Shown piece after piece: positions 1 through 37,189 of a stretch of 64,000 nt of DNA. The translations under genes and the position numbers were made by a program. Below the pieces are notes generated by a model, which was given only the letters and a program-made list of their open reading frames with translations, was not told where the DNA came from and did no database searches. Position 1 is the first letter of the stretch. Each line of letters begins with the position of its first letter. Source of the stretch: a bacterium (lineage in GTDB: Bacteria; Pseudomonadota; Alphaproteobacteria; SP197); assembly GCA_028821455.1 (NCBI GenBank), contig JAPPGE010000014.1, positions 1-64,000 of the forward strand. Direction: 5' to 3'.

Positions 1-2368
1 TGCGCGTCCAGCGGATCTTCTCGCCGGCCTGGAGTTCGATCGTGTCCGTCTCGAAAAGATCGACCCGGTAGCGCAGGTACTTCGACGGATCGGCCCGCCG
101 GGTCCTGCCGTCGGGGTGCCTGAGAAGCACCTTCTCGTCTTGCGCGCCAATCACCTCGAAGATGTCGCCCGACTGCGCCTGGACGCCGTAGACCTGCGCA
201 TGGAACACCGCGACGTCGCCCTCGCGCCAGTTGGCGAGATCCCCTTTCTGGGCCCGGGTGAGGTGAAGGTTGACGTAGCGCTCCACCTCGATGGTCCTTC
301 CGTGGAGACTCCCTTCGGCCTTCAGGCCCTCACGGATGGCGCCCGCGATCTCGCGGCGCAGCAGATGGGTCGGGGCCAGCACCGCCGTGGCGTCGCGTTC
401 TCTTTTGTCGAGATCTAGCCACAGGGCCGCGGCTCTGGATCCGAGCTCATCGGCATCCATCTCGAGGACGCCGGGACCGAGTTCATCGATGGCGAGATCC
501 GGCTTGCCCTCGATCAGGTGGAGCACCGCGGCCTTGAGACCCTCGTTGCGTTGGCGCAGAACCTCGTCCATCACCGACGTCTCCATGCCGGCCTTCTGCA
601 GCACCCGGAAGGGCTGTCCGGCCTCCACCGAGCGCAGCTGCGCCGTGTCGCCCACCAGGGCGACCCGGGCGATCCCCGTCGCCTTAGCGATCCGTGTGAG
701 GCTGTGCATCTGCGCCATGCTGACCAGCGATGCTTCGTCCACCACGAGGAGCGTGCCTTCCAGGGCCGCCCGGGCCGTCTCGAAGGCCTCCTCGTCGGCG
801 CAACCGTCGCCGACATCCCGGTAGCGGGTGAGGAACCACTGCAGCGTCTTCGTGCCGAGCCCGGTCTCGCGCTGAAGCGTGCGCGCCGCGCTGCTCGAGG
901 GAGCCAGGGCGACGATCCGCTCCGCCCCTACGAGTTCCACCACCTCTCTCAGCATCGTCGTCTTGCCAGTGCCGGCGTGGCCCTGGACGCCTACGACATG
1001 GTTCGATGACAGCAGCAGGGTGGTGACGGCGTCCCGCTGGCCGGCGTTGAGAGAACCGGCGTCGAGGTGGCGCGCGACCTCGCCGGCGTCGATCCCGAAG
1101 TCGCCTGCGGCGTCGCTCTCCTTCTTCATCCAGCGAACGACGGCACGCTCGGCCTTGACCGCCCGGTCGGTGACGAAGGCGAGATCGGAGCGCGCCTTGA
1201 TTGCTTCGACGAGGTGGCCCTCCTCGCGCATCCGGGCGATGGCCGCATCGATCTCCGGCAGCGTCCACTGACCCGGCGCCAGGACCAGAGCCCGCAGCAT
1301 GGTGGCGGTGAAGACCGTGCGCCGCTCCTCGAGATGCTCCACCGCCTGGCGCACCGCGTGAAGCGCCGAGGGAGACCGCCGGTTCGCGGCGTCCCGGCGT
1401 CTGAGGTGCCAGCGTTCCAGGTCCGCCTGAGAGCGGGTCGGAGGGCGGTTGCGGGCGACGCGCCGGTTGCGGGGTTCCAGTTCCGCCATCCGCGCCTGCC
1501 ATATGCGGGTGAGTTCCTCGCGCGACGGCTCGTCTTTGCGCTTGCGGGTGTAGAGCACCGCTTGCTGCATCACCGCGGCGGAAGCCGAATCGAGGTTGCG
1601 TTCCCTCGCCCAGGCGAGTGCTTGAGCCCGGCGGGTGGAGAAGGCCCTGAGGGTGGCCTTGTCGTATCCGGCGATCTCGAAACCCGGCACGCTGCCCACC
1701 ATGGTCTGCTCCGTGGCGTAGCCCAGGGCCTCCAGCCGGCGTTTGAGTTCGCCGCGGTAGTGAGCGCCGATCAGGTGCTTCGCGCGTTCGATCTTGATGA
1801 AGTCGGCGCTTCGCCATTCGCCCTGGCTGTTCTGCGTCATGTTGGCGACGACGCTGTGGGTATGAAGCTGCGGGTCGAGATTGCGGCTGGCGACGTGGCG
1901 GAAGGTGGCCGCCACCAGGCCATGACCCCTGATGCGGGGACGCCTGCGGGTCGCCGGGTCCCAGCCCCGGGTCTCCAGCAGCTCGTTCTCGATGAAGTCC
2001 AGCGTCGCCGTCACCGCCTCGTCGTGGGCCCGGACGATCCGGGCCGAGGCCTTCGGCGCGGCGTGCACCAGGGCCTCGAGGGAAACGGACTTAGGCGCTG
2101 AGAAGGTGATGTCGAGCCCGGGCCTGTGCTCGTGTTTGCCGTCCCGCAGGCGGCCGAGGCGGGTCGCCGTGCCGGGAATGCGGCCGGAGAGGACCTCCTC
2201 GAAGCGCTTGGGTTTGACGGGGCCGTGAAGGCCCAGCGCTTCGACGCCCTTGCCGTGCCAGCGGCTCGCCTTGCGGTGCTCAACGTCGTTCTTCGCGTAA
2301 TAGCCATCCGCTTCGAAGTAGTGGACCGTCGAGGCGGCTTCACTCAGGCGGGTGACCGTGGCAACCAT
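1..2368 (-). CDS. MobF-family conjugative relaxase/helicase (TraA/TrwC-like), 3' end outside window
   Basis: Nicks plasmid or ICE DNA at oriT and unwinds it for transfer. Translation from the ATG at 2368 gives an open frame of about 789 codons that leaves the window. The N-terminus has the clustered tyrosines of TrwC-type relaxases (Y17, then Y23-Y24). The stretch PKSVSLEALVHAAP follows, then the metal-binding histidine signature LDPQLHTHSVV. Further on comes a RecD-like helicase part with Walker A GHAGTGKTTM and Walker B VVDEASLVSM. Forms on the other two frames across this region are shadows. The matching transfer genes are absent here apart from remnants near 18.6-21.2 kb and 48.7 kb, so the gene probably belongs to a decayed or partly included mobile element. 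The family call is firm; whether the protein is complete cannot be seen. Confidence 0.93.
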   Translation of the reverse strand, partial: MVATVTRLSEAASTVHYFEADGYYAKNDVEHRKASRWHGKGVEALGLHGPVKPKRFEEVLSGRIPGTATRLGRLRDGKHEHRPGLDITFSAPKSVSLEALVHAAPKASARIVRAHDEAVTATLDFIENELLETRGWDPATRRRPRIRGHGLVAATFRHVASRNLDPQLHTHSVVANMTQNSQGEWRSADFIKIERAKHLIGAHYRGELKRRLEALGYATEQTMVGSVPGFEIAGYDKATLRAFSTRRAQALAWARERNLDSASAAVMQQAVLYTRKRKDEPSREELTRIWQARMAELEPRNRRVARNRPPTRSQADLERWHLRRRDAANRRSPSALHAVRQAVEHLEERRTVFTATMLRALVLAPGQWTLPEIDAAIARMREEGHLVEAIKARSDLAFVTDRAVKAERAVVRWMKKESDAAGDFGIDAGEVARHLDAGSLNAGQRDAVTTLLLSSNHVVGVQGHAGTGKTTMLREVVELVGAERIVALAPSSSAARTLQRETGLGTKTLQWFLTRYRDVGDGCADEEAFETARAALEGTLLVVDEASLVSMAQMHSLTRIAKATGIARVALVGDTAQLRSVEAGQPFRVLQKAGMETSVMDEVLRQRNEGLKAAVLHLIEGKPDLAIDELGPGVLEMDADELGSRAAALWLDLDKRERDATAVLAPTHLLRREIAGAIREGLKAEGSLHGRTIEVERYVNLHLTRAQKGDLANWREGDVAVFHAQVYGVQAQSGDIFEVIGAQDEKVLLRHPDGRTRRADPSKYLRYRVDLFETDTIELQAGEKIRWTR

Positions 2369-2387
2369 CAGCTATCGGGACTCGCAA

Positions 2388-2800: not shown

Positions 2801-3646
2801 TCAACTGTCTCTAGGAAGATAGTCGAAGCGCTCCATCTGGACGCGGTGCTGGGAACAGACCCTTTCAACCTGTTCTGGCGTCAGTTCCTGCCGCCAATGA
2901 CCGGCCGTGCCCCGGCGAAAGAACTTCTCCTGGGTAGGCGGTTTCTCCTTGAAACCCCGTTGATCCTCCTGGCGCCTCAGGGCCTTGAAAGAGGAATTCC
3001 TGATCGCCCGCAGAAGTCTCTGCCGCGACGGCTTCAGACCGAGAAACCGCGCTGTTGCCCCGAAGGTTTTCGAGGGGTGGTCCAGCATGTCCTCATAGCG
3101 CACCACGTGAAGGCGCGGATTGGGATTGCCGGTCCAGCTTTCGACGTGTTGCGACCAGCTCCCGAGAATGATCCCGACATTGTTCATCGCCGGATCATGC
3201 GGCGTCTCGAGGTTGTCGGTCGCCATGTGTTCGATCGCGTCGTCGACGCCGAATCCCATGAAGTCCGCAAACGACACGGCGACGTCCAGGGGATTTCTGA
3301 CGATGTAGATGGCACCGGACGTCACGGCAAGATTGATGGTTGGATACCCGCATATGGTCATCAGCGCGTTGTGAGTCTTGCAGAAGAGTGAGCCCTTCTG
3401 CGCCCGCGCGATCAGTTCGTTGACCCTTGGCCGCATGCTTGCCACGTCCTCGGGCAACCATTCGGCGAGCGGTCGCCGGTCGAGCATTTGAAACCACATT
3501 AGTGCGCCGTCGCTCTGCAGGAGTTCGCCTGCCATCCGGTTGACGTCGAACGAACGCTCTCGATTACTGAAAAGGTTGTGCAGGAACGCCCGCATCCACG
3601 TGTTCCCCGACTTCGGGAAACTTGCGAGCCAGACAATGTCACCCAT
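2801..3646 (-). CDS. PAPS-dependent sulfotransferase, cassette 1
   Basis: Transfers sulfonate from PAPS to an acceptor in the cytoplasm. It has 281 residues, the usual size of the Sulfotransfer_1 family. The 5'-phosphosulfate loop FPKSGNTW is at residues 10-17. The 3'-phosphate motif is IYIVRNPLDVAVSFADF in the middle, and near the C-terminus is RRGTAGHWRQELTPEQ, matching the family RKGxxGxWK-type motif. It starts MGDIVWLAS like its four paralogues. It follows porin 1 by about 70 bp with a conserved hairpin between them. Acceptor unknown; a cell-surface glycan is the natural guess given the porin linkage, but that is inference. Confidence 0.9.
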   Translation of the reverse strand: MGDIVWLASFPKSGNTWMRAFLHNLFSNRERSFDVNRMAGELLQSDGALMWFQMLDRRPLAEWLPEDVASMRPRVNELIARAQKGSLFCKTHNALMTICGYPTINLAVTSGAIYIVRNPLDVAVSFADFMGFGVDDAIEHMATDNLETPHDPAMNNVGIILGSWSQHVESWTGNPNPRLHVVRYEDMLDHPSKTFGATARFLGLKPSRQRLLRAIRNSSFKALRRQEDQRGFKEKPPTQEKFFRRGTAGHWRQELTPEQVERVCSQHRVQMERFDYLPRDS

Positions 3647-3716: not shown

Positions 3717-4712
3717 TCAGAAGCTGACTGCGAGTGCAATTCCGGCGAAGGTCGTGTCCTCATCATTGATGTTCGAATCGGCGCCGAGAGCACCGACAAC
3801 ATTGACGCCCGGGCCAAGGTTGTAGTTGGCCAGCAGGCGGGCCAAGTCGGTATCGACGGCATTGTCCTTCCGTCTCGTGCCGAAGTTCGCGCTGACCGAC
3901 AGCGAATCATCCACGCTGTAGCTGATGCCCATGTCCATCTGCTCAAGCTTGTCGCTGCCATCGTCCGTGTCGGTCGTCAGGTAAGCACCACCGATCGCGA
4001 CACCGGCCATGGAGACCTGGAGTCCGGCACCCGTCTCAGTGATCGTGGCACCGCCAGGCGTGTCATTTGACGCATGCCCGACTGACAGGGCAACGCCTGC
4101 ATCGCCGACCGCCCCGTCGTAGCGGGCACCGATGGAAATGAGATCGTTGCTTTCGCTCATGTCTCCCGTGCCGTGGCCTCCCCTGACTTCCCTCCCGGCC
4201 TCCGGTGCATAGGAGACACCGAACTGGAAGCCGTTGATCGACGGTGAGAAGTACATGATGGACGCGGAATCTCCCCACCATGCGCCGGGAAGCGTCCAAT
4301 GCCATCCACCGCTGCTGATGGAACCTGACCAGTAAGGCGTGTTGATGCCATAGATGAACGAAGCATATGGTGCCGTCGTGGCCATTGAGTACGATGCCGC
4401 ATCGTCATTGCCGATACGCAACGTACCGAACGAGCCTTCGACATAGGCGTAGGTCTCGTCCATCTGGTCACCGTTGGCCTCGCCATCTTCTTCGCCTTGG
4501 GAGGCTTCCTCACCCTCAAGTTCGAAGCGCACGCCGATCTCCAAGCCGCTGTCGAGCACCGTGCTGCCCTTGAAGTTGAGCTCGACATCGCTCGAGATGG
4601 CGATGTCGTCGGTTTCGGCGGCTGCGTCGTTGTCGACGACAGCGATGCCCCAGAACGAATTACCGCCGATGGCAATCGAGATCGGTTCGGCCATCATCTC
4701 GTCCGCAGCCAC
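3717..4712 (-). CDS. Silent outer-membrane porin 1, lacking a signal peptide
   Basis: A 331-residue beta-barrel porin of the Gram-negative porin type. The mature start is EMMAEPISIAIGG; in the middle is INGFQFGVSYAPEAG; the end is FAGIALAVSF, with the C-terminal Phe of outer-membrane barrels. The frame opens only at a GTG corresponding to the last residues of the signal peptide of porin 4 (SGVAA-EEMMAEP). An in-frame TGA lies 11 codons upstream with no ATG between, so as arranged it has no signal peptide and no recognisable promoter. The mature frame is undamaged, arguing for a donor or switchable copy rather than a pseudogene. Confidence 0.88.
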   Translation of the reverse strand: MAADEMMAEPISIAIGGNSFWGIAVVDNDAAAETDDIAISSDVELNFKGSTVLDSGLEIGVRFELEGEEASQGEEDGEANGDQMDETYAYVEGSFGTLRIGNDDAASYSMATTAPYASFIYGINTPYWSGSISSGGWHWTLPGAWWGDSASIMYFSPSINGFQFGVSYAPEAGREVRGGHGTGDMSESNDLISIGARYDGAVGDAGVALSVGHASNDTPGGATITETGAGLQVSMAGVAIGGAYLTTDTDDGSDKLEQMDMGISYSVDDSLSVSANFGTRRKDNAVDTDLARLLANYNLGPGVNVVGALGADSNINDEDTTFAGIALAVSF

Positions 4713-4840
4713 ACCCGAAGACGCACGAGTGGAACTAACTCACTGCTTCAACGCCGTACTTTTTCTCGCTATTCTGCAACTTCTGGCGAATTCGCGAGCG
4801 GATTCACTCGCGTTTGCAATCCGATTGCGAGGCGGTCTAC
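4713..4840. other. 128-bp recombination-site-like module 1
   Basis: The gap between the porin 1 GTG and the recombinase remnant ATG is exactly 128 bp, as in three other places (7238-7365, 10310-10437, 15846-15973). Read toward the porin it holds two TTGCA motifs about 37 bp apart (near GGATTGCAAACGCG and AGAAGTTGCAG), a GCGTTGAAGCAGTGA block containing the in-frame stop, and a CCAC-TC-GTGCG motif just before the porin homology begins. The arrangement resembles arm and core sites of a tyrosine-recombinase att site. Confidence 0.6.
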
Positions 4841-5244: not shown

Positions 5245-6084
5245 CTACCTAGGGAGGTAGTCGAAGCGTTTCATCTGCTCGTGGTGATCCGAGCAAATGC
5301 GTTCGACCTGCTTGTCAGTCAGTTCCTCCCTCCAACCGTTCGCAACACCACGGCGGAAGAAGCGTCGCTGAAAAGGGGAGCGTTCCTTGAAACCTAGTCT
5401 CTTCTCCTGACTCTGCATGACCTTGAATGACGAGTTTTTGATTGCCTTCAGCAATCTCTGTCGTGACGGCTTCAAGCCCAGGAAGCGGGTCAACTTTCTC
5501 AATATTCGAACCGGATCGTCATGCAAGTCCTCGTAGCGAACTACATGAAGCTGACGGTTGGGTCTGCCTGTCCAACTCTTGACATGCTGCGACCAGCTTC
5601 CAAGCAATAGCTGAACATTGTTGTACGCAGGGTCACTCTGTGTCTCCAAGTCGACGGTGCCCATGTGATTGATTGCCGTGTCAAGGTCGACCCCCAGGAA
5701 GTCAGCGAACGAGGGGGTCACATCAAGGGGGTTTCTCACTATGTAGACTGCGCCGGATGTCACTTCCATGTTGATGGTCGGATAGCCCCGTGACACGAGC
5801 AGTGCATTGTGTGTTTTGCAGACAATGGACCCCGGTGACGTCTGGGCAATCAGTTCGTCAACCTTGGGGCGCATCCGCGCCACGTCATCCGCACTCCATT
5901 CCTGGCAGGGTCGCTTGTCCAGCATGCGGTACCATGTGAGCATTCCGTCACTTTGGGTGAGGTCTCCCTGCATTCTGTTCACATTGATGGGATCGCTTCG
6001 GTTCCAAAAGAGGTTGTGAAGAAGCGCACGAATCCACGTGTTGCCCGACTTCGGATAGCTGGCCAGCCAGACTATGTCACCCAT
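5245..6084 (-). CDS. PAPS-dependent sulfotransferase, cassette 2
   Basis: A 279-residue sulfotransferase. The ATG at 6084 is chosen because it gives MGDIVWLASYPKSGNTW, aligned with the paralogues; the frame stays open upstream into the porin 2 gene on another frame, which is a shadow. The 5'-PSB loop is YPKSGNTW, the 3'-PB motif YIVRNPLDVTPSFADF and the C-terminal motif RRGVANGWREELTDKQ. It is the most divergent of the five in the middle region. It follows the cassette hairpin at 6114-6138. Likely cytoplasmic; acceptor unknown. Confidence 0.9.
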   Translation of the reverse strand: MGDIVWLASYPKSGNTWIRALLHNLFWNRSDPINVNRMQGDLTQSDGMLTWYRMLDKRPCQEWSADDVARMRPKVDELIAQTSPGSIVCKTHNALLVSRGYPTINMEVTSGAVYIVRNPLDVTPSFADFLGVDLDTAINHMGTVDLETQSDPAYNNVQLLLGSWSQHVKSWTGRPNRQLHVVRYEDLHDDPVRILRKLTRFLGLKPSRQRLLKAIKNSSFKVMQSQEKRLGFKERSPFQRRFFRRGVANGWREELTDKQVERICSDHHEQMKRFDYLPR

Positions 6085-8415: not shown

Positions 8416-9270
8416 TCAGATTCCAACGTACTCCGGTGGGAGATAGTCGAAACGTTTCATTTGGACGCGGTGTTGCGAACAGATCCTCTCCACCTGGTCG
8501 GGTGTCAGTTCCTGCCGCCAATGTCCGGCGGTGCCTCGACGGAAGAACTTCTCCTGGTTGGGCGACCTCTCCTTGAACCCGCCAGCCACCTCCTGGCTCT
8601 GCAGGGTCCTGAACGAGGAGTTCCGGATAGCTCGCAATAGCCTCTGGTGCGACGGCTTCAGTCCCAGAAACCGCGCCACGCCTCCGAATGTTGCGGAAGG
8701 CTTGTCGATCATGTCCTCATAGCGCACAACATGGAGACGCGCATTGGGGCTGCCCGTCCAACTCTCGACGTGCTGCGTCCAGCTCCCCGAGACGATCGAG
8801 ACATTGTTGCGCTCCGGGTCATGAGGCATCTCCAGGTAGTCGGTCGCCATCAATTCGATTGCCTGGTCAAGATCGGTTCCCATGAAGTTTGCCGAGGATG
8901 CTGCCACATCGAGAGGATTGCGCACGATGTAGAGGGCGCCCGATGTCACACCCAGATTGATGGTCGGGTGCCCACGCACAGTCATCAGGGCATTGTGTGT
9001 CTTGCAGAAGATGGATCCCGGCTGTCCCCGGGCGATCAGTTCGCAGACCTTCGACCGCATGGCGGCCACGTCCTCGGGCGACCATTCGCTCACCGGGCGC
9101 CTGTCCACCATCTGGAACCACATCAGGGACCCGTCGCTCTGCAGGATCTCTCCCTGCATCCTGTTGAGATCAGCCGGCTTCGCCTCGTTGTGGAACAGAT
9201 TGTGCAGAAACGCCCGCATCCACGTGTTGCCAGATTTCGGGTAGCTGGCCAGCCAGACGATGTCGCCCAC
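8416..9270 (-). CDS. PAPS-dependent sulfotransferase, cassette 3
   Basis: A 284-residue sulfotransferase. The GTG at 9270 is taken as start because it gives (V)GDIVWLASYPKSGNTW aligned with the MGDIV start of the paralogues; a TTG two codons upstream is the alternative. The 3'-PB motif is YIVRNPLDVAASSANF and the C-terminal motif RRGTAGHWRQELTPDQ. It is closest by eye to sulfotransferase 4 over the first 200 residues and to sulfotransferase 1 at the C-terminus, a mosaic pattern consistent with recombination between copies. Unlike cassettes 1, 2 and 4, no coiled-coil gene follows. Confidence 0.88.
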   Translation of the reverse strand: MGDIVWLASYPKSGNTWMRAFLHNLFHNEAKPADLNRMQGEILQSDGSLMWFQMVDRRPVSEWSPEDVAAMRSKVCELIARGQPGSIFCKTHNALMTVRGHPTINLGVTSGALYIVRNPLDVAASSANFMGTDLDQAIELMATDYLEMPHDPERNNVSIVSGSWTQHVESWTGSPNARLHVVRYEDMIDKPSATFGGVARFLGLKPSHQRLLRAIRNSSFRTLQSQEVAGGFKERSPNQEKFFRRGTAGHWRQELTPDQVERICSQHRVQMKRFDYLPPEYVGI

Positions 9271-9292
9271 GCACAAGACCCCTCAATGAAAA

Positions 9293-9318
9293 GGGAGCGG
9301 CCACAAAGAGCCGCTCCC
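9293..9318 (-). terminator. Conserved porin-sulfotransferase intercistronic hairpin 3
   Basis: GGGAGCGGC / GCCGCTCCC is a 9-bp stem between porin 3 and sulfotransferase 3, followed on the minus strand by TTTTCATTG, the same tail as in cassette 5. Confidence 0.73.
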
Positions 9319-9349
9319 TGAAGATACTTGGGATATCAGATGGCGGCGA

Positions 9350-10309
9350 TCAGAAGCTGATCAGCAACGCAATGGCGGCGAAGGTCGTATCACCATCGTC
9401 TTGTGGGGAATCACCCCCGAGGACACCGGCCATGCTGACGCCCGGGCCAAGATTGTAGGTCCCCATCAGACGGGTAAAGTCTGTGTCGACACCTTCACTG
9501 TCCTGACTCGTGTTGCCGTAGTTGGCGCTGACCGCCCACGGACCATCACCGTACTTGATGCCAACATCGAACTGGGTCGTGTCGTCCATCGCATTGTCGT
9601 GGTCCTGAACGCGATAAGAACCGCCGATGGAAACTCCGGACATCGACACCACGAGACCTGTGTTCCAGTCCGTCTCCGTCGTATTCTCCATATCTTTGCT
9701 CGTCATGCCTGCAGCAGCTGTGACGCCGGTGTCACCGAACGCACCATCATAGCGCGAACCGACGGACCACGCGTCACCACCTTCCGCAGAATACACGGAG
9801 CCTGAGTCCACATTTGTGCCGGCCTCCGGCGCATATGACGCACCAAACTGGAAACCGTTGATCACGGGCGAAAAGTACAGCAGGGATGCCCCGTCCGAAC
9901 CTGCGCCGGCAAATGTCGAGTGCCAGTGACCGCTCAGATGCCCGGACCACCATGGCGTGTTGATGCCATACCAGTATGTGGCATAGGGGGCAGCCGTCGA
10001 CATCTTGTACGAAGCGGTGTCTTGGTTGCCGACGCGAAGCTCGCCGAAGGATCCGCTGACAGAGGCGAACTGCCCGTGGGCCGGCGATTTACCCGCTCCA
10101 CCATCGACATCGATTCGCATAGCGACTTCCAGACCATTGTCTAGAACAGTGGAGCCCTTGAAGACGAGCAAGACATCGTTGGAGATCGCGAGGTCGTCTT
10201 TGTTTGCATTGGCTTCGGCATCGCTGTCTACAATCGCGACGCCCCACATGGACCGGCCGCCAATGCTCAGAGAGATCGGCTCGGCCATCATCTCCTCCGC
10301 GACGGCCAC
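9350..10309 (-). CDS. Silent outer-membrane porin 3, lacking a signal peptide
   Basis: A 319-residue porin, the shortest of the five. It has EEMMAEPISLSIGG at the mature start, INGFQFGASYAPEAG in the middle, GIKYGDGPWAVSANYG, and AAIALLISF at the end with terminal Phe. The in-frame stop TGA lies 11 codons before the GTG start, with no start codon or signal peptide in between. It points left, away from the single expressed porin promoter at 10949-10977, and its 5' end is only about 0.7 kb from the 5' end of porin 4. The frame is intact. Confidence 0.88.
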   Translation of the reverse strand: MAVAEEMMAEPISLSIGGRSMWGVAIVDSDAEANANKDDLAISNDVLLVFKGSTVLDNGLEVAMRIDVDGGAGKSPAHGQFASVSGSFGELRVGNQDTASYKMSTAAPYATYWYGINTPWWSGHLSGHWHSTFAGAGSDGASLLYFSPVINGFQFGASYAPEAGTNVDSGSVYSAEGGDAWSVGSRYDGAFGDTGVTAAAGMTSKDMENTTETDWNTGLVVSMSGVSIGGSYRVQDHDNAMDDTTQFDVGIKYGDGPWAVSANYGNTSQDSEGVDTDFTRLMGTYNLGPGVSMAGVLGGDSPQDDGDTTFAAIALLISF

Positions 10310-10437
10310 ACCCGAAGCCGCACATGTGGTGTTAACTCATTGCTTCAACGCCGTACCTTCTTTCTGCATGCTGCAACTTCTGACGGATCCACGAGTGGAC
10401 TCACTCGCGTCTGCAACTCGACTACGAGGGAGACGCC
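10310..10437. other. 128-bp recombination-site-like module 3
   Basis: Exactly 128 bp between porin 3 and the recombinase remnant. It carries GAGTTGCAGACGCG, CAGAAGTTGCAGCATG, GCGTTGAAGCAATGA with the in-frame TGA, CCAC-AT-GTGCG, then CTTCGGGTGTGGCC joining the porin-homologous sequence. It lies in inverted orientation relative to the signal-peptide region of porin 4. Confidence 0.6.
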
Positions 10438-10712
10438 ATGGCCACAATGCATCTCACACGGGCCTTACGGCGCCAAAAGGCCACCCGCGACATCCGAGCC
10501 GAGTAGGCCTGTCGGATGTCCGTCTCCACGATCTGCGGCAACCGTGCGCCTCCCTTACCATCATGTGGAGAACATCCCCGCCGGTTGTGAAGCGCCTGAT
10601 TGGACACGCGCGGCCGACCATGACAGTCCGATCCGTACGGATCGGCGACCGGGGACCCGAGGCGGCAGCGGAGCGCATCGGAACCCTGATCGCCGGCATG
10701 CTTGGCATGGAC
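10438..10712 (+). pseudogene. Tyrosine recombinase remnant 3 (IntA start joined to IntB end)
   Basis: The first 20 codons, MATMHLTRALRRQKATRDI, match the start of IntA (14721-15845). After a stop, the translation SDVRLHDLRQPCASL followed by VVKRLIGHARPTMTVRSV and AAAERIGTLIAGMLGMD matches the last 70 residues of IntB (13597-14724; VRLHDLRHTYAS, AGMLDMG). About 2 kb of the two-gene operon has been deleted between the two points. The catalytic His of LRH and the Tyr of RYAH are lost (LRQ, VRSV), so it is dead. It shows that the IntA-IntB pair once stood next to porin 3 too. Confidence 0.8.
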
Positions 10713-10904
10713 CAACGAGTGCTGCCCCACGAATCGCCTGATGACTGTCCGTTGAGAACCTCGACGGCCGTAAATCGGGTGGTACCTGGCAAACAGCCGG
10801 TGCAACCTTCCCAGAAATGCAACTGCTACTTGCTCCAACATCGTCTAGGAGGGACCCAACAAGCAGTGCCGCTTCGCCCAAGGCCGTGCCTGTGCATAAA
10901 TCCT

Positions 10905-10920
10905 GTTGCAATCTTGCAAC
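10905..10920. repeat. GTTGCA-ATCT-TGCAAC inverted repeat
   Basis: A perfect 6-bp inverted repeat with a 4-bp centre, about 30 bp upstream of the porin 4 promoter -35 box. GTTGCA is the same word that recurs in the 128-bp modules, so this may be a recombinase or regulator binding site. Confidence 0.45.
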
Positions 10921-10948
10921 ACCTGTTGAACTTACGCCATACATACCT

Positions 10949-10977
10949 TTGACGGAACCGCGGTATCGCGCTACATA
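10949..10977 (+). promoter_or_regulatory. Promoter of the expressed porin 4 (sigma-70 type)
   Basis: TTGACG (10949-10954), a 17-bp spacer and TACATA (10972-10977) give a good sigma-70-like promoter about 65 bp upstream of the porin 4 ATG. A perfect palindrome TAGGATCCTA follows at 11016-11025 and may be an operator. No such promoter was found in front of the other four porins. Confidence 0.6.
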
Positions 10978-11044
10978 GGCCCCTGCCAGCACCGTTGTGC
11001 CGGCATTTCCTTGATTAGGATCCTATCATGAAAGGAAGTGAACA

Positions 11045-12070
11045 ATGAAAAAGGCCCTTATGGGAACCACTGCCCTTGTGGCGGCCGCGGTGACTTCGGG
11101 TGTGGCCGCCGAGGAGATGATGGCCGAGCCGGTCTCGCTGACCATCGGCGGCAACTCGCACTGGGGTATTGCCATCGTCGACAACGAGGCAAAGGAAGAT
11201 CCAGATGACCTCGCCCTCTCGAACGACGTGGAACTCAGGTTCCACGGTTCAACAGTTCTGGACAGCGGAGTCGAGGTTGGTGTGCGCATCGAGATCGAAG
11301 GCGAGCAGAGCGGCGACCAAGGTGACGAGACCTACATGTACCTGGAAGGCTCGTTCGGCACGATCCGCATCGGCAACGATGATGCAGCAGGTGCCCAGAT
11401 GGGTACGGCGGCGCCCTATGCCACGTACTTCTATGGCATCAATACGCCTTGGTGGGTGGGCACATTCAGCGGCGCTAACAGCAACTGGCACACTACGTTC
11501 GCCGGTGCGAACGCGGGCGATGCCGCTTCCGTGATGTATTTCTCGCCGACCATCAACGGTTTCCAGTTCGGTCTCTCCTATGCCCCTGAGGCGGGTGTGG
11601 AAGCACGAAGCGGTACAGCTTCAAATGGCCCGGGGAACGAACTCGTCTCGATCGGTGCTCGCTATGACGGTGCCTTCGGTGATGCCGGTGTCACGATTGC
11701 CGCCGGGCATTCCAGCCACGACATGGAGGGAGGCCCGACCCCGACGGACACCTCTCTTGGCGTGGTGGTGTCCATGTCCGGAGTGTCAGTCGGCGGGTCG
11801 TACATGGTTACGGACCCAGACACAGACGGGGTAGACGACGTTGAGCAGATGGACGTCGGCATTAGCTATGGTGAGGGTCCGTGGACCGTCAGCGTCAACT
11901 ACGGCGAGAAGAGCCAAGACAGTTCCAATCTTGACAACACCTACGCCCGTCTGTTGGCCAACTACAACCTTGGCCCAGGCATCAATCTTGCCGGTGCTCT
12001 CGGTCAGGACACGTTTGAAGACGACGAAAACACGACGTTTGCCGGTATTGCGATGGCGATCAACTTCTGA
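11045..12070 (+). CDS. Expressed outer-membrane porin 4 with signal peptide
   Basis: A 341-residue porin and the only complete one of five. MKKALMGTTALVAAAVTSGVAA is a Sec signal peptide (quoted as MKKALMGTTALV then AAAVTSGVAA), with cleavage probably before EEMMAEP. The barrel has INGFQFGLSYAPEAG, GISYGEGPWTVSVNYG and the C-terminal AGIAMAINF. A Shine-Dalgarno sequence AAGGAAG ends 7 bp before the ATG, and a promoter lies at 10949. The signal-peptide 3' end (CTTCGGGTGTGGCC) is exactly where the silent copies start to be similar. It heads an operon with a sulfotransferase and a coiled-coil protein. It would form a general diffusion pore in the outer membrane. Confidence 0.92.
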   Translation: MKKALMGTTALVAAAVTSGVAAEEMMAEPVSLTIGGNSHWGIAIVDNEAKEDPDDLALSNDVELRFHGSTVLDSGVEVGVRIEIEGEQSGDQGDETYMYLEGSFGTIRIGNDDAAGAQMGTAAPYATYFYGINTPWWVGTFSGANSNWHTTFAGANAGDAASVMYFSPTINGFQFGLSYAPEAGVEARSGTASNGPGNELVSIGARYDGAFGDAGVTIAAGHSSHDMEGGPTPTDTSLGVVVSMSGVSVGGSYMVTDPDTDGVDDVEQMDVGISYGEGPWTVSVNYGEKSQDSSNLDNTYARLLANYNLGPGINLAGALGQDTFEDDENTTFAGIAMAINF

Positions 12071-12100
12071 TCATCAATATCTGATATCGCATGTTCTTTG

Positions 12101-12126
12101 AGGAGCGGCCCTTGGGGGCCGCTCCT
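12101..12126 (+). terminator. Conserved porin-sulfotransferase intercistronic hairpin 4
   Basis: AGGAGCGGCCC / GGGCCGCTCCT is a perfect 11-bp stem with loop TTGG, followed by TTCCGTT, 30 bp after the porin 4 stop and 20 bp before sulfotransferase 4. It is a strong structure without a long T tract, so partial read-through is plausible. Confidence 0.75.
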
Positions 12127-12145
12127 TTCCGTTGGGGTTTCATTC

Positions 12146-12991
12146 ATGGGCGACATTGTCTGGCTGGCCAGCTATCCGAAATCGGGCAACACATGGATGC
12201 GAGCGTTCCTGCACAACCTCTTCCACAACGAGGCGAAGCCGACTGACTTGAACAGGATGCAGGGCGAGATCCTACAGAGCGACGGTTCGCTGATGTGGTT
12301 CAGGATGGTGGACAAGCGTCCGGTGAGCGAATGGTCGCCCGAGGATGTGGCCGCCATGCGGCCGAAGGTCTGCGAACTGATCGCCCGGGGACAGCCGGGA
12401 TCCATCTTCTGCAAGACCCACAATGCCCTGATGACGGTGCACGGGTATCCAACCATCAATCTGGGTGTGACATCGGGCGCCATCTACATCGTGCGCAATC
12501 CTCTCGATGTGGCGGCCTCTTCGGCGGACTTTATGGGAACCGATCTTGACCAGGCGATCGCGTTGATGGCGACCGACTACCTGGAGACGCCCCATGACCC
12601 GGAGCGCAACAATGCCTCGATTGTCTCGGGCAGTTGGTCACAGCATGTGGCGAGCTGGACCGGCCGGAAGAATGAGCGTCTCCACGTGGTCAGGTATGAA
12701 GACATGATCGACAAGCCTTCCGCAACCTTTGGAGGGGTGGCGCGATTTCTGGGGCTGAAGCCGTCGCGCCAGAGACTTTTGCGGGCCATCCGCAACTCCT
12801 CGTTTCGGACCATGCAGCGCCAGGAGGAGGCTGGCGGGTTCAAGGAGAGGTCGGAGCACCAGAAAAGCTTCTTCCGCCGCGGCAAGGCCGGGGGCTGGAA
12901 GGATGAACTGAGCGAGAACCAGATTCAGCAGATCTGCGAGGACCATGGCGAGCAGATGAAACGCTTCGGCTACCTCCCTGGGGACGGCTGA
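12146..12991 (+). CDS. PAPS-dependent sulfotransferase, cassette 4 (expressed)
   Basis: A 281-residue sulfotransferase downstream of the expressed porin. The ATG at 12146 gives MGDIVWLASYPKSGNTW; the upstream extension of the frame covers the hairpin and is not coding. The 3'-PB motif is YIVRNPLDVAASSADF and the C-terminal motif RRGKAGGWKDELSENQ. Being behind the only porin promoter in the array, it is probably the sulfotransferase currently made, by read-through of the 12101-12126 hairpin. Substrate unknown. Confidence 0.91.
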   Translation: MGDIVWLASYPKSGNTWMRAFLHNLFHNEAKPTDLNRMQGEILQSDGSLMWFRMVDKRPVSEWSPEDVAAMRPKVCELIARGQPGSIFCKTHNALMTVHGYPTINLGVTSGAIYIVRNPLDVAASSADFMGTDLDQAIALMATDYLETPHDPERNNASIVSGSWSQHVASWTGRKNERLHVVRYEDMIDKPSATFGGVARFLGLKPSRQRLLRAIRNSSFRTMQRQEEAGGFKERSEHQKSFFRRGKAGGWKDELSENQIQQICEDHGEQMKRFGYLPGDG

Positions 12992-13596: not shown

Positions 13597-14724
13597 TCAT
13601 CCCATGTCCAGCATGCCGGCGATCGCCGTTCCGATGCGTTCCGATGCCGCTTCAGTTTCCCGGTCGCCCATGTGTGCGTACCGCATTGTCATTGTCATCT
13701 GCGAGTGACCAAGGAGCTTTGCCACCACGGGAAGCGGCGTTCCCTGCATGACGGCATGGCTGGCATATGTGTGACGAAGATCGTGAAGACGGACATCCTC
13801 GATGCCAGCGTCCCTGCGAATTGTGTACCACAGCGAAAGATCGTCGGAGAGCGGTCGGCCTTGATCCAGGGGCGAAGGGAAAACGAAAGCGCTGTCACCC
13901 GTCATGTGGCGCTCAATGATGGTCCTTGCACCGGAATTCAGAAAGACCCTTCGAGGCCCCGTCTTGCTGTCGAGAAGCCGGAGGCCGTCATCGAACACTT
14001 CTCTCTTTTGCAGACGGACGATCTCGTTCCTGCGGCACCCGGTGAGCACAAGAAGCCGGATGATGTCGATCTGCACTCGCTGTGTGGGACTGATTCCATC
14101 GGAGTTGTCATGATGATCGAGAGCGTCGTGCAGGCGATGAAGTTCGTCCTCCGAAAGGAAGCGGGTGAGTTTTGGTCTGTGGTTGGGTCTGATGTTGCTG
14201 GTCGGGTTCGCGGCGATGTGGCCGCGGGAGACGGCATGATTGAAGATGTGGCGCAGGATCTTCAGACAGTGGTTGGCGCCGCCAGGCGCTGTTCTGCTGT
14301 AGTCGTCGAACCACCGGTGCACCATGGAAGGGGTGATTCGGTCCAGGCGCCGGGATCCGAACGTGGGCAATAGACGGCCAAGGTTTCTGTCATGCCACCG
14401 GATGGTGGCGGGCTTGCAGCGATAAATCCAAGAATCTCTCCAGGGCCCGGCAGCGAAGTCCCTGAAGCAAGGGACTGCTGTGTCATCTTCGCCGCGACGG
14501 GTCAGTCGCTCAAGGCTCTCCGTGCGGGCCTGCCTGACGGTCTTGAACGAGATCGGACCAAGTGACGCTCTCTTCCCGCTTTCGACATGGATGAAGCTGC
14601 GACCACCTGATGGGTACACCCGGACACCGAGGGAGGGAACGACTGTGTCGCAGAGTGTGTATTCCCGGGAGTTCGGCTTGAGTTTCCGAACGAGGGTGTC
14701 GGTCAGGCGCTCCCTGCGGTTCAT
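13597..14724 (-). CDS. Tyrosine recombinase IntB
   Basis: A 375-residue site-specific recombinase of the phage-integrase family. An N-terminal DUF4102-like segment (LVRKLKPNSREYTLCDTVVP) is followed by a core-binding domain and a catalytic domain. The catalytic set is visible: TGCRRNEI (Arg), DSKTGPRR (Lys), LHDLRHTYAS (His-x-x-Arg), LLGH (His) and MRYAHM (Tyr). Its start overlaps the IntA stop by 4 bp (ATGA), so the two are translationally coupled. The product presumably acts at the 128-bp modules or the porin signal-peptide sites. IntB-derived sequence also survives in remnant 3. Confidence 0.93.
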   Translation of the reverse strand: MNRRERLTDTLVRKLKPNSREYTLCDTVVPSLGVRVYPSGGRSFIHVESGKRASLGPISFKTVRQARTESLERLTRRGEDDTAVPCFRDFAAGPWRDSWIYRCKPATIRWHDRNLGRLLPTFGSRRLDRITPSMVHRWFDDYSRTAPGGANHCLKILRHIFNHAVSRGHIAANPTSNIRPNHRPKLTRFLSEDELHRLHDALDHHDNSDGISPTQRVQIDIIRLLVLTGCRRNEIVRLQKREVFDDGLRLLDSKTGPRRVFLNSGARTIIERHMTGDSAFVFPSPLDQGRPLSDDLSLWYTIRRDAGIEDVRLHDLRHTYASHAVMQGTPLPVVAKLLGHSQMTMTMRYAHMGDRETEAASERIGTAIAGMLDMG

Positions 14725-15845
14725 GTCCTGGCCCTCCCGAGAACGGTGCCGACGGCCTCGGCCGCTTCGGCCACTACGTTATCGGCAAGGTGCGTGTACT
14801 TGAGGGTGGTCGCGGGATCGCTGTGGCCGAGAAGTCGGCCGACGGTGAGGATGCTCTCTCCCTGCATGACAGCAAGGGAGGCGTACGTGTGGCGCAAGTC
14901 GTGAAGGCGGACATCTGACAGAGCTGCTTCGGCACGGATGGATGTCCAGAGTTTGCCGACACTACTGCTGGAGATGTGTCCCTTGGTGCGCGTCGACGGA
15001 AACACCCAGGGCGAGTTCTTGGGAAGGCCATCCAGGATTTGCCGGGCCGGAGACGACAGCCAGACCATGCGAGGTCCCGTCTTGCTGTCACGGAGATGAA
15101 GATGACCCTGCCGGTATTCCGTCCAGCGGAGCGACACGATTTCCTGACTGCGGCATCCCGTCAGAAGAAGGAGTCGGATGATCGCTACTTCGGTCGGAAA
15201 GCGCTGTTCATGTGTCTTCAGCACCAACCCGAGCCGGCGAACTTCTTCGACGGAGCAGTAACGCTCCCGTCCTTTCCGGCGATAACGCCTGATGCCCTTG
15301 CATGGATTGCTTCCCTGAGGCCGGTAGCCATAGTCCTCGGCACGCGCCATGATGACGGAGAGGATCGGGGCGGATCGGTCGGCGGCCCCAGGCGTGGCAT
15401 GGAGGGAGGCGAACCACTCCCGGACATCGGTGCCCGTGATTCCCGCAATCTGACGTCCTCGGAACCATGGCAGAATCTGTTTGCGGTAGTAGCCCCGGTT
15501 GACGGTGAGTGTCCCAGGCTTCCATGCGCGTCCGTAACGGCGAAAGACCTCCTCGGCGACCGTCTCGAACAGAGTCTCTTCCGTTGATGCGGGCGTGCCG
15601 ATTCGGGTGGCGGCAAGCAATGCCTGGGCACGTTTGCGGGCTTCGATGAGGCTGATCTCGGAGGCATCGCCGACGATCTTCCAGATTCGATATCCCTGAT
15701 GCTGTGTATGAACAAAGAAACGTTTGCGCCCGGTCGGATAGACACGGATTCCGAAACCCTTGAGACCGGCGTCACGGATGTCGCGGGTGGTCTTGCGGGA
15801 CCGGAGGGCCTTGATGCGAGCCTCGGTGAGATGTGTTGCGGCCAT
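14721..15845 (-). CDS. Tyrosine recombinase IntA
   Basis: A 374-residue phage-integrase-family recombinase. The ATG at 15845 is preferred (Shine-Dalgarno GAGAGAG upstream; the remnants in the other cassettes start at the equivalent ATG) over an in-frame TTG 9 codons upstream. The catalytic residues are in TGCRSQEI, DSKTGPRM, LHDLRHTYAS, LLGHSDPATT and LKYTHL. The N-terminal DUF4102-like domain is GFGIRVYPTGRKRFFVH. It is divergent from porin 5 across a 128-bp gap, and first of the two-gene recombinase operon. Its 5' end is duplicated, decayed, beside porins 1, 2 and 3. Confidence 0.93.
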   Translation of the reverse strand: MAATHLTEARIKALRSRKTTRDIRDAGLKGFGIRVYPTGRKRFFVHTQHQGYRIWKIVGDASEISLIEARKRAQALLAATRIGTPASTEETLFETVAEEVFRRYGRAWKPGTLTVNRGYYRKQILPWFRGRQIAGITGTDVREWFASLHATPGAADRSAPILSVIMARAEDYGYRPQGSNPCKGIRRYRRKGRERYCSVEEVRRLGLVLKTHEQRFPTEVAIIRLLLLTGCRSQEIVSLRWTEYRQGHLHLRDSKTGPRMVWLSSPARQILDGLPKNSPWVFPSTRTKGHISSSSVGKLWTSIRAEAALSDVRLHDLRHTYASLAVMQGESILTVGRLLGHSDPATTLKYTHLADNVVAEAAEAVGTVLGRART

Positions 15846-15973
15846 GGATTCTCTCTCGCAATTTCGTTGCAAACGCGGGAGAATCCATTAGAGAATTCCA
15901 CCGCAGTTGCAGAATAGAAAGAGAAAATAAGACGTATTATTAGTTAGTTAGCACCACGGGTGCGCCCACTGGT
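15846..15973. other. 128-bp recombination-site-like module 5 (next to intact recombinases)
   Basis: The gap between IntA and porin 5 is again exactly 128 bp. It contains CGTTGCAAACGCG, CGCAGTTGCAGAATAG, an AT-rich stretch (AAAGAGAAAATAAGACGTA), TTAGTTAGTTAG with the in-frame TAG, CCAC-GG-GTGCG, then GGTGTGGCCGTTGCC. Compared with modules 1-3 the GCGTTGAAGCAGTGA block is replaced by AT-rich sequence. It is the best candidate for the functional att site because the recombinases are intact. Confidence 0.62.
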
Positions 15974-16954
15974 GTGGCCGTTGCCGAGGAGATGATGGCC
16001 GAGCCGATCTCGCTCACCATTGGCGGCAGGTCGCACTGGGGTGTAGCGTTGTTTGACGACGAGGCAGCGGGGGAGCGTGACGATGTCCAGATTTCGAACG
16101 ATGCCCTGCTGACGTTCTCGGGTTCGACAGTTCTCGACAATGGTGTCGAAGTCGCCATCCGCATCGAGGTCGAAGGCGAGAAAGCCAGTGATAACGCGGA
16201 TGCGAAGTTCGCTGAATTGTCGGGCTCCTTTGGCGCGATTCGTGTCGGCAATGACGATGTTGCCGGCAAGAAGATGGCCACGCTCGCACCGTACGCGACG
16301 TACTTCTACGGTATCAACGATGCGTACTGGTCGTTCTCGTATTCAAGCGCGTTTGATGGCGCTACGAGTGGTCAGACCTGGACGGACACGTACGCCAATG
16401 CCGGTGTAGGCGCTTCCGCGAATCTCACATATTTCTCGCCTGTGATCAACGGATTCCAGTTCGGCGCTACTTATGTGCCGGAAGCTGGTCAAGAAGCACC
16501 GTCGGGCACTGCGCCCGTCGGCAAGGGGAATGATGCGGTTTCCGTCGGCCTGCGCTACGACGGCGCGTTCGGCGATACTGGCATCGCCGCTTCTTTTGGA
16601 TTCACGAACCACGACGGTGCTGAAGTCACCACAAGTGAGTGGGGTGCTGGTCTGGTCGTCTCCATGATGGGTGTGTCACTCGGCGGCTCCATGAGTGTGC
16701 AGGACGATGAGAGCAACGACGACCTGACTCAGATGGACCTCGGAATCAGTTATGGCGAAGGTGCCTGGACAGTCAGTGCGAATGTCGGCAATGCCACCGA
16801 CGACGATGCGAACATTGACACTGACTTTGCACGTCTGCTGGCCAACTACAATCTCGGGCCAGGTATCAACGTGGCAGGCGCGCTCGGCAATGATTCGCCG
16901 ATCACTGGCAACGACACCTCGTTCGCCGGTATCGCGTTGGGTATCAGTTTCTGA
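15974..16954 (+). CDS. Silent outer-membrane porin 5, lacking a signal peptide
   Basis: A 326-residue porin. GTG-GCC-GTT-GCC leads into EEMMAEPISLTIGG; INGFQFGATYVPEAG and GISYGEGAWTVSANVG follow; it ends AGIALGISF with terminal Phe. An in-frame TAG at 15941 and the absence of any ATG before the mature sequence leave it without a signal peptide. It is closest to porin 2 (RSHWGVALFDDEA versus RSHWGVAIFDNEA). The frame is intact and it is followed by the hairpin and sulfotransferase 5. It lies in the same orientation as porin 4, so recombination between their 5' ends would delete, not invert, the 4.9 kb between. Confidence 0.88.
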   Translation: MAVAEEMMAEPISLTIGGRSHWGVALFDDEAAGERDDVQISNDALLTFSGSTVLDNGVEVAIRIEVEGEKASDNADAKFAELSGSFGAIRVGNDDVAGKKMATLAPYATYFYGINDAYWSFSYSSAFDGATSGQTWTDTYANAGVGASANLTYFSPVINGFQFGATYVPEAGQEAPSGTAPVGKGNDAVSVGLRYDGAFGDTGIAASFGFTNHDGAEVTTSEWGAGLVVSMMGVSLGGSMSVQDDESNDDLTQMDLGISYGEGAWTVSANVGNATDDDANIDTDFARLLANYNLGPGINVAGALGNDSPITGNDTSFAGIALGISF

Positions 16955-17028: not shown

Positions 17029-17889
17029 ATGGGTGACATAGTCTGGCTCGCCAGCTACCCCAAGTCAGGCAACACGTGGATGCGTGCGTTCCTGCACAAT
17101 TTCTTCTTCAATGCGAAGCGTCCGGTCAATCTCAATAAATTGCAGGGCCAGGTTTCCCAGAGCGACGGAATGCTCATGTGGTTCCAGATGCTCGACAAAC
17201 GTCCTTGCGAAGAATGGACGGCGGAAGACGTGGCGCGCATGCGGCCCAAGGTCAATGAACTCATTGCCAGAGGTCAAACCGGGTCCGTGTTCTGCAAGAC
17301 CCATAACGCGATGGTGACCGCATACGGCTTTCCCACCATCAATCTTCAGGTGACCTCAGGGGCAATCTACATCGTGAGAAATCCTCTCGACTTGGCTTCA
17401 TCGCTTGCCGACTACTCGGGGATCACCGTGGAGAAGGCAGTCGACTGGTTGGAGACAGACGATCTCGAAACTGAGAGTAATCCAGCATTCAATCACATCA
17501 AGCTCAGGCTCGGAAGCTGGTCTCAACATGTCGAGAGCTGGACCGGACGGCCCAATCCTCGTCTCCATGTCGTGCGCTATGAAGATATGCTGGCGAATCC
17601 TGAAAGGGCCTTCGGGGAGGTATCCCGTTTCCTGCGGCTGAAGCCATCTCGCCAGAGGCTCCTTCGAGCCGTCAGGAATTCATCGTTTGACACCATGCGG
17701 CGACAGGAGGAGAGACACGGTTTCAACGAACGCTCTGCGCACCAGGAGAGGTTCTTCCGCCGTGGCACGGCCGGGGGATGGAAAGAGGAATTGACAGATG
17801 AGCAGGTCAGGCGGATCTGCGAAACCCATGGAGACCAGATGAAGCGCTTCGGCTACCTGTCACCGGGCGGACAGCCCACCATCGGGTGA
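17029..17889 (+). CDS. PAPS-dependent sulfotransferase, cassette 5
   Basis: A 286-residue sulfotransferase starting MGDIVWLASYPKSGNTW. The 3'-PB motif is YIVRNPLDLASSLADY and the C-terminal motif RRGTAGGWKEELTDEQ. The segment after the 3'-PB (SGITVEKAVDWLETDDLE) is clearly different from the other copies, suggesting a different acceptor (inference). A GGGG-rich Shine-Dalgarno follows the hairpin. No coiled-coil gene follows; the array ends here, next to an NCS2 gene fragment. Confidence 0.9.
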   Translation: MGDIVWLASYPKSGNTWMRAFLHNFFFNAKRPVNLNKLQGQVSQSDGMLMWFQMLDKRPCEEWTAEDVARMRPKVNELIARGQTGSVFCKTHNAMVTAYGFPTINLQVTSGAIYIVRNPLDLASSLADYSGITVEKAVDWLETDDLETESNPAFNHIKLRLGSWSQHVESWTGRPNPRLHVVRYEDMLANPERAFGEVSRFLRLKPSRQRLLRAVRNSSFDTMRRQEERHGFNERSAHQERFFRRGTAGGWKEELTDEQVRRICETHGDQMKRFGYLSPGGQPTIG

Positions 17890-32781: not shown

Positions 32782-33636
32782 ATGGACAACTACGAATACA
32801 AGGTTCTGATCGTCGACGATGAGGATGACGTCCGCAACGGCTGGGTGGCGGGATTGTGTGCGCTGGGTGTGCGCGGGCGGGAGTTCTTCGCCATGGGCGC
32901 CAGGACGGCCGGGGACGCCCTTGACCTCCTCTCGGAAGAGAGGGCACGTGGCGCCCCCTTCAACGTCGCGGTGCTTGACCTGCATCTCGAGGGAAGTGGC
33001 GAGCCCTACGAGACTGACCGTTGGGCTCTCGCAAGGCAGTTGAAGGAACTCTATCAGCCCTATCCCGACCTGGGGATCATCGTGGTGACGGCCATCCACC
33101 ACGATCCGGCCGATTTCAAGACTGCCAGCGACATGGCCGACGGAGGCTATCTCTCCAAGGCTGCAATCGACGCCGAGAATCTCGCCGAGGTCATCAGAAC
33201 GCGCTTTCCGCCGCGAGAGGCTCCCGTCTTCTGGTTCTCTCCTGCGCACCAGGACAACCAGGACAAAGCCTTCATCCTGAACACCGGCACCATGACGCTG
33301 CGTCGCCTCCCGGGCCGGGCCAAGGTATCGACACCGCGCGGCACAGGTGATCTCTGGTTTCTGGAGGTGTTCTTGCGCGAGGCCCTGGACAGGTCCCCGG
33401 AAACCCTGGTCGGATACGACACGATCTATGCCTACAAGGACGGCCGCCATCAGACGACCATCCCGATACCCTGGCACCTGGGCACACAGCGCACCCAGGG
33501 AGAGGACAACAGCTGGATTCATCAACCCGTGTCCCGGTTGCGCACTCTCCTCGATCCGGTGGAAAAGGGCATCTTCGAGAACCGGCGCAATGAAGGCTAC
33601 GTGGTGGCGGCGAGGGTCAAGAGGGTCGACGATTGA
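32782..33636 (+). CDS. Response regulator with receiver and winged-helix-like output
   Basis: 284 residues. The receiver domain runs from KVLIVDDEDDVRNGW (acidic pocket) through the phospho-acceptor Asp in VAVLDLHLEG to GIIVVTAIHH and the Lys in GGYLSKAAID. The C-terminal part (about residues 150-284) ends FENRRNEGYVVAARV, like the end of an OmpR-type winged helix, but the rest is unusual, with an extended strand region (FWFSPAHQDNQDKAF). It overlaps the kinase gene (TGATG), so they form a two-component pair. It may control the secreted proteins just upstream. Confidence 0.8.
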   Translation: MDNYEYKVLIVDDEDDVRNGWVAGLCALGVRGREFFAMGARTAGDALDLLSEERARGAPFNVAVLDLHLEGSGEPYETDRWALARQLKELYQPYPDLGIIVVTAIHHDPADFKTASDMADGGYLSKAAIDAENLAEVIRTRFPPREAPVFWFSPAHQDNQDKAFILNTGTMTLRRLPGRAKVSTPRGTGDLWFLEVFLREALDRSPETLVGYDTIYAYKDGRHQTTIPIPWHLGTQRTQGEDNSWIHQPVSRLRTLLDPVEKGIFENRRNEGYVVAARVKRVDD

Positions 33637-36665: not shown

Positions 36666-37189
36666 GGGCCGACCCTTGGCTTTGCGCGGGTAGTCCCGCC
36701 GCGGTCCCCGTGCTCGCGCAGTCTATTCGCCGTCGCCTCGAAGATGACCGTGCCACCGACGTCGTCGTCGCCAGTACAATTGATGCAACAATTGCTAGGA
36801 ATGATGGTCATCGGGATCTCCCTGATAGACGCGGGCATGGCCCTGCGTGCGCCTGACTTTAGGGGAGGCCCTCTTGGATCTCAAGCGTCATCCGCTGGAC
36901 CAGAAGCCATTGCCTTCCGGCTTCCGGCCCGAGCGTTATCAGTCGCGTCACCAACCCGCTGAGGTCCTAAATGTTGGTCAGTCTTCCGCCACGGATGGCC
37001 CGACGCTCGACGTGCCTGACGAGTCCCGCTGTTTCACGGTCAGTGATGTAGCGTTGCGCCTGACAGGGACTGGGATCCGACCGCTCGGCTGCGACTGCCT
37101 CGCTGGGTTACGGTTTGCGGTCGCGTTCCCGCCAAATGTCGTAGAGCTGCACCCGCATGGCGTGCTGCGTCGGTCTGAGACCCAGATCG
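36666..37189. other. About 0.5 kb without a confident gene
   Basis: This is the upstream region of the PIN gene and the left border of the partial two-component repeat. No convincing frame; no clear remnant of the missing receiver domain. Confidence 0.45.

Follow-up and report, generated by a model that had tools for sequence, protein, structure and literature searches.

A likely site-specific DNA-inversion switch for surface porins in an alphaproteobacterial genome

In Mycoplasma pulmonis, silent genes at the Vsa locus receive a promoter, a ribosome-binding site and 714 coding bases through inversion (PMC2268961). In the outer-membrane shufflon of Bacteroides fragilis (region EE, ragA/susC), the inverted repeats overlap the starts of alternative outer-membrane protein genes; inversion puts these under the control of one promoter, and each unit contains paired genes (PMC5729914). 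The fim system of Escherichia coli has two adjacent tyrosine recombinases (FimB/FimE), and its short promoter segment is flanked by inverted repeats between which it can flip. Porins often serve as phage receptors and as points of contact with the host, and neither a porin/sulfotransferase inversion switch nor an inversion switch in a sponge symbiont was found reported in the open-access literature searched. The locus described here is likely a site-specific DNA-inversion switch for surface porins, a reading that has comparative support, while switching was not observed directly.

The locus is located in a stretch of 64,000 nucleotides (C104:1–64000, hereafter the window), which is part of a 4.36-Mb assembly (genome G000). 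Five porin genes, each followed by a sulfotransferase gene, are found between 2.8 and 17.9 kb. The minus strand carries P1 (3717–4712, with sulfotransferase ST1 at 2801–3646), P2 (6170–7237, ST2 at 5245–6084) and P3 (a GTG open reading frame at 9350–10309, ST3 at 8416–9270), and the plus strand carries P4 (11045–12070, ST4 at 12146–12991, Sulfotransfer_1) and P5 (15974–16954, ST5 at 17029–17889). The Pfam family Porin_4 was assigned by scan to three of the porins, P4 among them, and the remaining ones were assigned by similarity; all relatives of P4 recovered from G000 in a similarity search lie within the window. Only P4, the copy with a presumed promoter (ON), has a signal peptide, and the silent P1, P2, P3 and P5 begin at the mature domain: 23 stop-free in-frame codons precede the mature start in P4 (signal peptide) versus 12–14 in the other four (no signal peptide).

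The P4 leader consists of a signal-peptide coding part (MKKALMGTTALVAAAVTSGVAA, 11045–11110, plus strand) and the preceding region (10880–11044, plus strand), which is presumed to carry the promoter and a ribosome-binding site. This preceding region contains the near-palindrome TGTTGCAATCTTGCAACA and is conserved on contigs C93 and C99 of G004, a genome of the same genus (public records MPMV01, 'EF100-94H03 bin56') which is a metagenome-assembled genome (MAG) from the sponge Aplysina aerophoba (PMC5649159). The presumed promoter and signal-peptide DNA occurs as a single copy in the entire 4.36-Mb assembly. An earlier interpretation of the window's letters (the sequence-only reading) had placed P3 leftward from 10309 and P4 rightward from 11045, with the sole porin promoter and signal peptide between them; the open reading frame coordinates confirmed the first claim, and the second held for the leader DNA, the promoter itself being inferred. 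Indeed, a scan of the P4 upstream region for the sigma-70 consensus gave no match; the promoter status of the leader rests on its conservation, and that it drives transcription is an inference.

The near-palindrome TGTTGCAA-n-TTGCAACA at 10904–10921, upstream of the presumed promoter and conserved in the sister genome, recurs in L072 and L073 (G004 C93 and C99) and partly in the remnant L071. TTGCA half-sites are also recurrent upstream of intB recombinase genes (see below) and are possibly sites of one regulator. All five porin–sulfotransferase gaps (in P4 at about 12100–12130) contain a strong stem-loop (GGAGCGGCC...GGCCGCTCC) with a T-rich stretch behind it, and the P5 version has compensating changes; judged from sequence alone, the structure might act as a terminator or attenuator separating porin and sulfotransferase. 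In several other genomes of the genus (L075–L079), recombinases are absent and up to seven tandem sulfotransferase genes come after a single leader-bearing porin. Elsewhere in the window, a response-regulator-like and kinase-like gene pair is present twice (32782–34949 and 36847–38488), the second copy being partly rearranged.

The borders of P3 and P4 share sequences in opposite orientation, as the sequence-only reading had stated. The site core CTTCGGGTGTGGCC is found at the silent P3 (10304–10317, minus strand) and at the signal-peptide/mature junction of P4 (11094–11107, plus strand), and the 20-mer of the mature start, GAGGAGATGATGGCCGAGCC, at 11111–11130 (plus) and 10278–10297 (minus). 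In a repeat search, this border pair appeared as 29-nt arms, 86% complementary and 776 nt apart, and a 30-nt site pattern with at most 3 mismatches had 0 matches in 100 shuffles. The match of the 20-mer is expected because the porins are homologous (mature N-terminus EEMMAEP); the information lies in the 14 nt that precede the mature start, the rest of the border repeat being partly ordinary porin homology. In a comparison of P3 with P4 over 150 nt, the left flanks were 55% identical (unrelated) and the right flanks 73% (homologous).

The segment predicted to invert lies between the two site cores (10318–11093, 776 bp). Its inversion in silico gave an in-frame 338-aa P3 precursor (MKKALMGTTALVAAAVTSGVAVAEEMMAEP...), and the frame into P3 was kept for all crossover points tried within the 14-mer CTTCGGGTGTGGCC. 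At the other end, P4 loses its leader and gains an upstream sequence typical of the silent copies. The claim that an inversion of about 0.8 kb would put the leader in frame before P3 and switch P4 off thus held in silico, and the inverted junction passed the frame check, whereas the two-state picture of P3 and P4 had to be widened. The P2 site has the same core, CTTCGGGTGTGGCC, as an inverted partner 3848 bp from the P4 site, and the P1 site has the core CTTCGGGTGTGGC, 6373 bp from the P4 site; both inversions are in frame in silico. The P1 and P2 sites are oriented as that of P3, and the overlap CTTCG is common to the sites of P1, P2, P3 and P4; therefore, inversions of 776, 3848 or 6373 bp could join the leader in frame to P3, P2 or P1. 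The P5 site (GCACC-ACG-GGTGC-G-CCCACT-GGTGT, 15951–15975, plus strand) is in direct orientation and its overlap CCACT is unlike that of P4, so that activation of P5 would need a 4872-bp excision across a mismatched overlap. The sites suggest, by inference, at least four states (P1–P4), and the system is likely better called a small shufflon of the leader than a two-state switch. No inverted junction was seen in the assembly, which holds a single orientation, and reads and culture are absent; inversion as an interpretation is supported by the comparison with G004 and unobserved in living cells.

An intact pair of tyrosine recombinase genes (13597–15845) is located about 0.6 kb downstream of ST4, with intA (13597–14724, 375 aa) and intB (14721–15845, 374 aa) both on the minus strand. 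Both products match PF00589 and Arm-DNA-bind_3 and have a low-score similarity to Xer and integron integrases in family scans; dN/dS against the orthologue on contig C3 of G004 is 0.17 for intA and 0.15 for intB. P1, P2, P3 and P5 have an upstream region in common, in which a tyrosine recombinase gene starts divergently, and P4 has the promoter-leader flank instead. The recombinase gene adjoining P5 is the intact intB with its intact partner intA. Inside the invertible segment, a remnant (10439–10709, plus strand) consists of the first about 22 intB-like codons followed by an intA-like C-terminal fragment, representing decayed recombinase genes. Since the recombinase genes within the window's own segment are broken, switching there needs enzymes in trans; the action of IntA and IntB on these sites is inferred only.

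G004 holds porin–sulfotransferase units with the same sites as the window, and the strongest evidence for the switch reading comes from its contig C99 (L073). The order there is a silent porin (minus strand), a site, intB and intA (plus), the leader (plus) and an inverted site, with both site ends reading ACCACT-GGTGT. In architecture, this is an intact module with both recombinase genes inside the invertible segment. The leader meets a stop after 22 residues and is OFF at present, and inverting 8685–11392 (2708 bp) in silico creates an in-frame 417-aa porin. On C93 (L072), an active porin and a divergent silent porin flank a segment of 1299 bp whose recombinase gene is broken. With segments of 2708, 1299 and 776 bp, that of the window is therefore the most reduced of the three. 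On C3, the promoter part is kept beside intA and the leader is absent. Silent porin copies are also present in a further genome, G001; a search of viral contigs for the porin and the leader found nothing.

The sites themselves carry signs of past exchange. The three leaders are 90–92% identical over 150 nt upstream, yet the last five bases before GGTGT differ (CTTCG, CGACT and CCACT), and in 3/3 modules the leader overlap is that of the partner site in the same module. This triple match has P = 0.048 if the silent sites are paired at random, which is modest and in the expected direction. The block P4–ST4–intA–intB–porin–sulfotransferase is syntenic with G004 C3 10527–17960, and the homology begins at window position 11099, within the core; the left flank is the leader in G000 versus recombinase-type in G004. 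This synteny comparison shows the P4 unit ON in G000 and its counterpart OFF in G004. Relative to the shared left chromosomal flank (window 1995–2369, L072 127–501), the leader is directed to the right in G000 and to the left in G004. Because the array content of the two genomes is not the same, this orientation difference does not amount to a clean inversion of a single segment.

The frames of the silent porins are open (one on G004 C93 runs off the contig end), and pairwise dN/dS values of 0.16–0.31 show purifying selection; these copies are not junk, with the reservation that dN/dS between paralogues partly dates from before silencing. Such earlier divergence might explain a part of the values, less so for the pairs silent in both genomes, for which dN/dS is 0.23 (P5 versus the silent copy on C93) and 0.22 (G004 C99 versus G001 C323).

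Apart from the porin locus, G000 has about 13 further intB–intA loci (L027–L039), and G004 has a similar number. Most of the examined pairs in G000 carry the end motif GCACC-nnn-GGTGC-G-N5/6-GGTGT (GCACCnnnGGTGC-G-N5/6-GGTGT), followed by unrelated DNA. Within 12 kb of these other pairs, no inverted partner site matched exactly and none of the near matches was convincing, which makes them unlikely to be switches; they resemble a mobile element family. Direct repeats of their own N6-GGTGT, sought around the pairs as element ends, were not found except for two weak matches in L035, and in alignments the homology ends soon after intA, leaving the right end undefined. The same recombinase-pair family is patchy in other alphaproteobacterial families, whose loci contain the end motif in 1/9 cases, with most flanks being short. 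The IntB tree places the porin-linked copies in two cross-species pairs, and the other copies cluster mostly by genome.

The pairs at L027–L039 fall into two subfamilies by spacer length (5 or 6), with an undefined far end, and one locus has a compensated stem (GCACG/CGTGC). In L035 (G000 C96), part of an autotransporter-like gene is duplicated (98–99%) at 1199–1544 and 4192–4747, on both sides of the region adjoining the recombinase pair. A search for the other half of an interrupted AbiEii gene gave no match.

In the proposed mechanism, the movable leader would comprise the presumed promoter, the ribosome-binding site and most of the signal peptide, between inverted short sites at the signal-peptide/mature-porin junction. 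Strand exchange by IntA and/or IntB would take place within the N5-GGTGT core, after they have paired the leader site with the inverted site of a silent porin. Inversion of the leader would join it in frame to P3, and longer inversions to P2 or P1; P4, the porin served until then, would lose its promoter, start and export signal. Ancestrally, the recombinase genes would have been inside the invertible segment, as they still are on G004 C99; the inner genes of the window would then have decayed, and the intact pair downstream of ST4 is expected to act in their place. That switching is ongoing and reversible is inferred, and so is its benefit, which might be the evasion of phage or host recognition.

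An alternative, which we consider unlikely, is that the locus consists of insertion scars: a mobile two-tyrosine-recombinase element would integrate at the porin signal-peptide junction and bring a replacement porin, the silent porins being displaced leftovers without any reversible switch. In its favor, the recombinase pair is not confined to the porins: G000 has about 13 other copies and G004 has many, most of them carrying the same end motif beside unrelated genes, and the distribution across the class is patchy. However, those copies have no inverted partner site; the porin module does, with an identical overlap, and encloses the leader. Moreover, leftovers should decay, but the silent porins retain reading frames and purifying selection, and the porin-linked recombinases are conserved between species. 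It is likewise improbable that a former switch is now locked, past inversions explaining the architecture of a segment which no longer flips in the window's species. The recombinase genes inside the segment are indeed remnants, the P5 site beside the intact pair has an overlap unlike P1–P4, and the alternative orientation is absent from the assembly. Against this, IntA and IntB are intact and under selection at the same locus, the silent porins keep intact frames, and P1, P2, P3 and P4 still have matching cores.

General homologous recombination or gene conversion between porin copies, with the recombinases as bystanders, is very unlikely. The porins are homologous and inverted relative to one another, and two G004 copies have right flanks with 97% identity (150 nt compared), a likeness of the kind that gene conversion leaves. 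The left flanks, however, are unrelated (55–62% over 150 nt), the break falls in a short core beside recombinase genes, and the porins are merely about 60–80% identical in protein. Less probable still is an assembly artefact from a mixed metagenome population, albeit the identifiable records are all MAGs and the related locus L073 has a poly-G stretch and a local duplication: the same architecture is present in the separately assembled G000 and G004, silent copies are also found in G001, and the frames are all clean.

If the inversion-switch reading is true, uncultured sponge-type symbionts would have surface variation of a type described mostly in pathogens and gut bacteria, whereby another stored porin reaches the surface by a leader flip, without mutation. 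The intact and shrinking versions of the module would document a path by which a mobile recombinase pair may give rise to an inversion switch that later comes to depend on trans enzymes. A bolder reading, for which the case is evenly balanced, is that an alphaproteobacterial mobile two-recombinase family was domesticated as a self-contained cassette (recombinases, promoter and signal peptide) that flips between promoterless, leaderless porin–sulfotransferase units. This would be a multi-state surface switch in which only the promoter and export signal move, with a possibly surface-modifying enzyme changing together with the porin.

Compared with known systems, the locus has three of the features by which an inversion switch is recognized: inverted matching sites flank the segment, a recombinase gene is nearby, and the gene change is in frame (in silico only). 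As in Hin/Gin, the recombinase gene and the promoter are within the invertible segment on G004 C99; however, Hin is a serine recombinase and those at the porin locus are tyrosine recombinases. A Hin-type serine system was rejected, with five matches to PF00239 in the genome and none on contig C104. Since the recombinases are a tandem tyrosine pair, the comparison is with Fim and Vsa and not with Hin; the Hin- or Fim-type geometry proposed by the sequence-only reading accordingly held in part, for the likeness to Fim.

Like fim, the locus has two adjacent tyrosine recombinase genes beside an invertible presumed-promoter segment, as judged from metagenome-derived sequences only. In fimS, the promoter alone moves and turns one operon ON or OFF, whereas in the window a coding leader would move and serve several alternative genes. 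Inverted repeats at gene starts, one promoter and paired genes per unit are shared with the B. fragilis shufflon, which belongs to another phylum and another protein family; unlike there, the movable part is one small leader segment, with its own recombinase pair inside in G004. As in Vsa, with its HvsR tyrosine recombinase, silent surface-protein genes are devoid of a promoter and the 5' coding part and depend on a single expression site for both. The Vsa proteins are a lipoprotein family of a mollicute for which 714 coding bases move, whereas only the signal-peptide part would move before Gram-negative porins in the window; the latter also differs in having two recombinases and a sulfotransferase in each unit, and recombination sites of a different character. 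Overall, by analogy, the closest functional likeness is to Vsa of M. pulmonis, Fim and the outer-membrane shufflon of B. fragilis.
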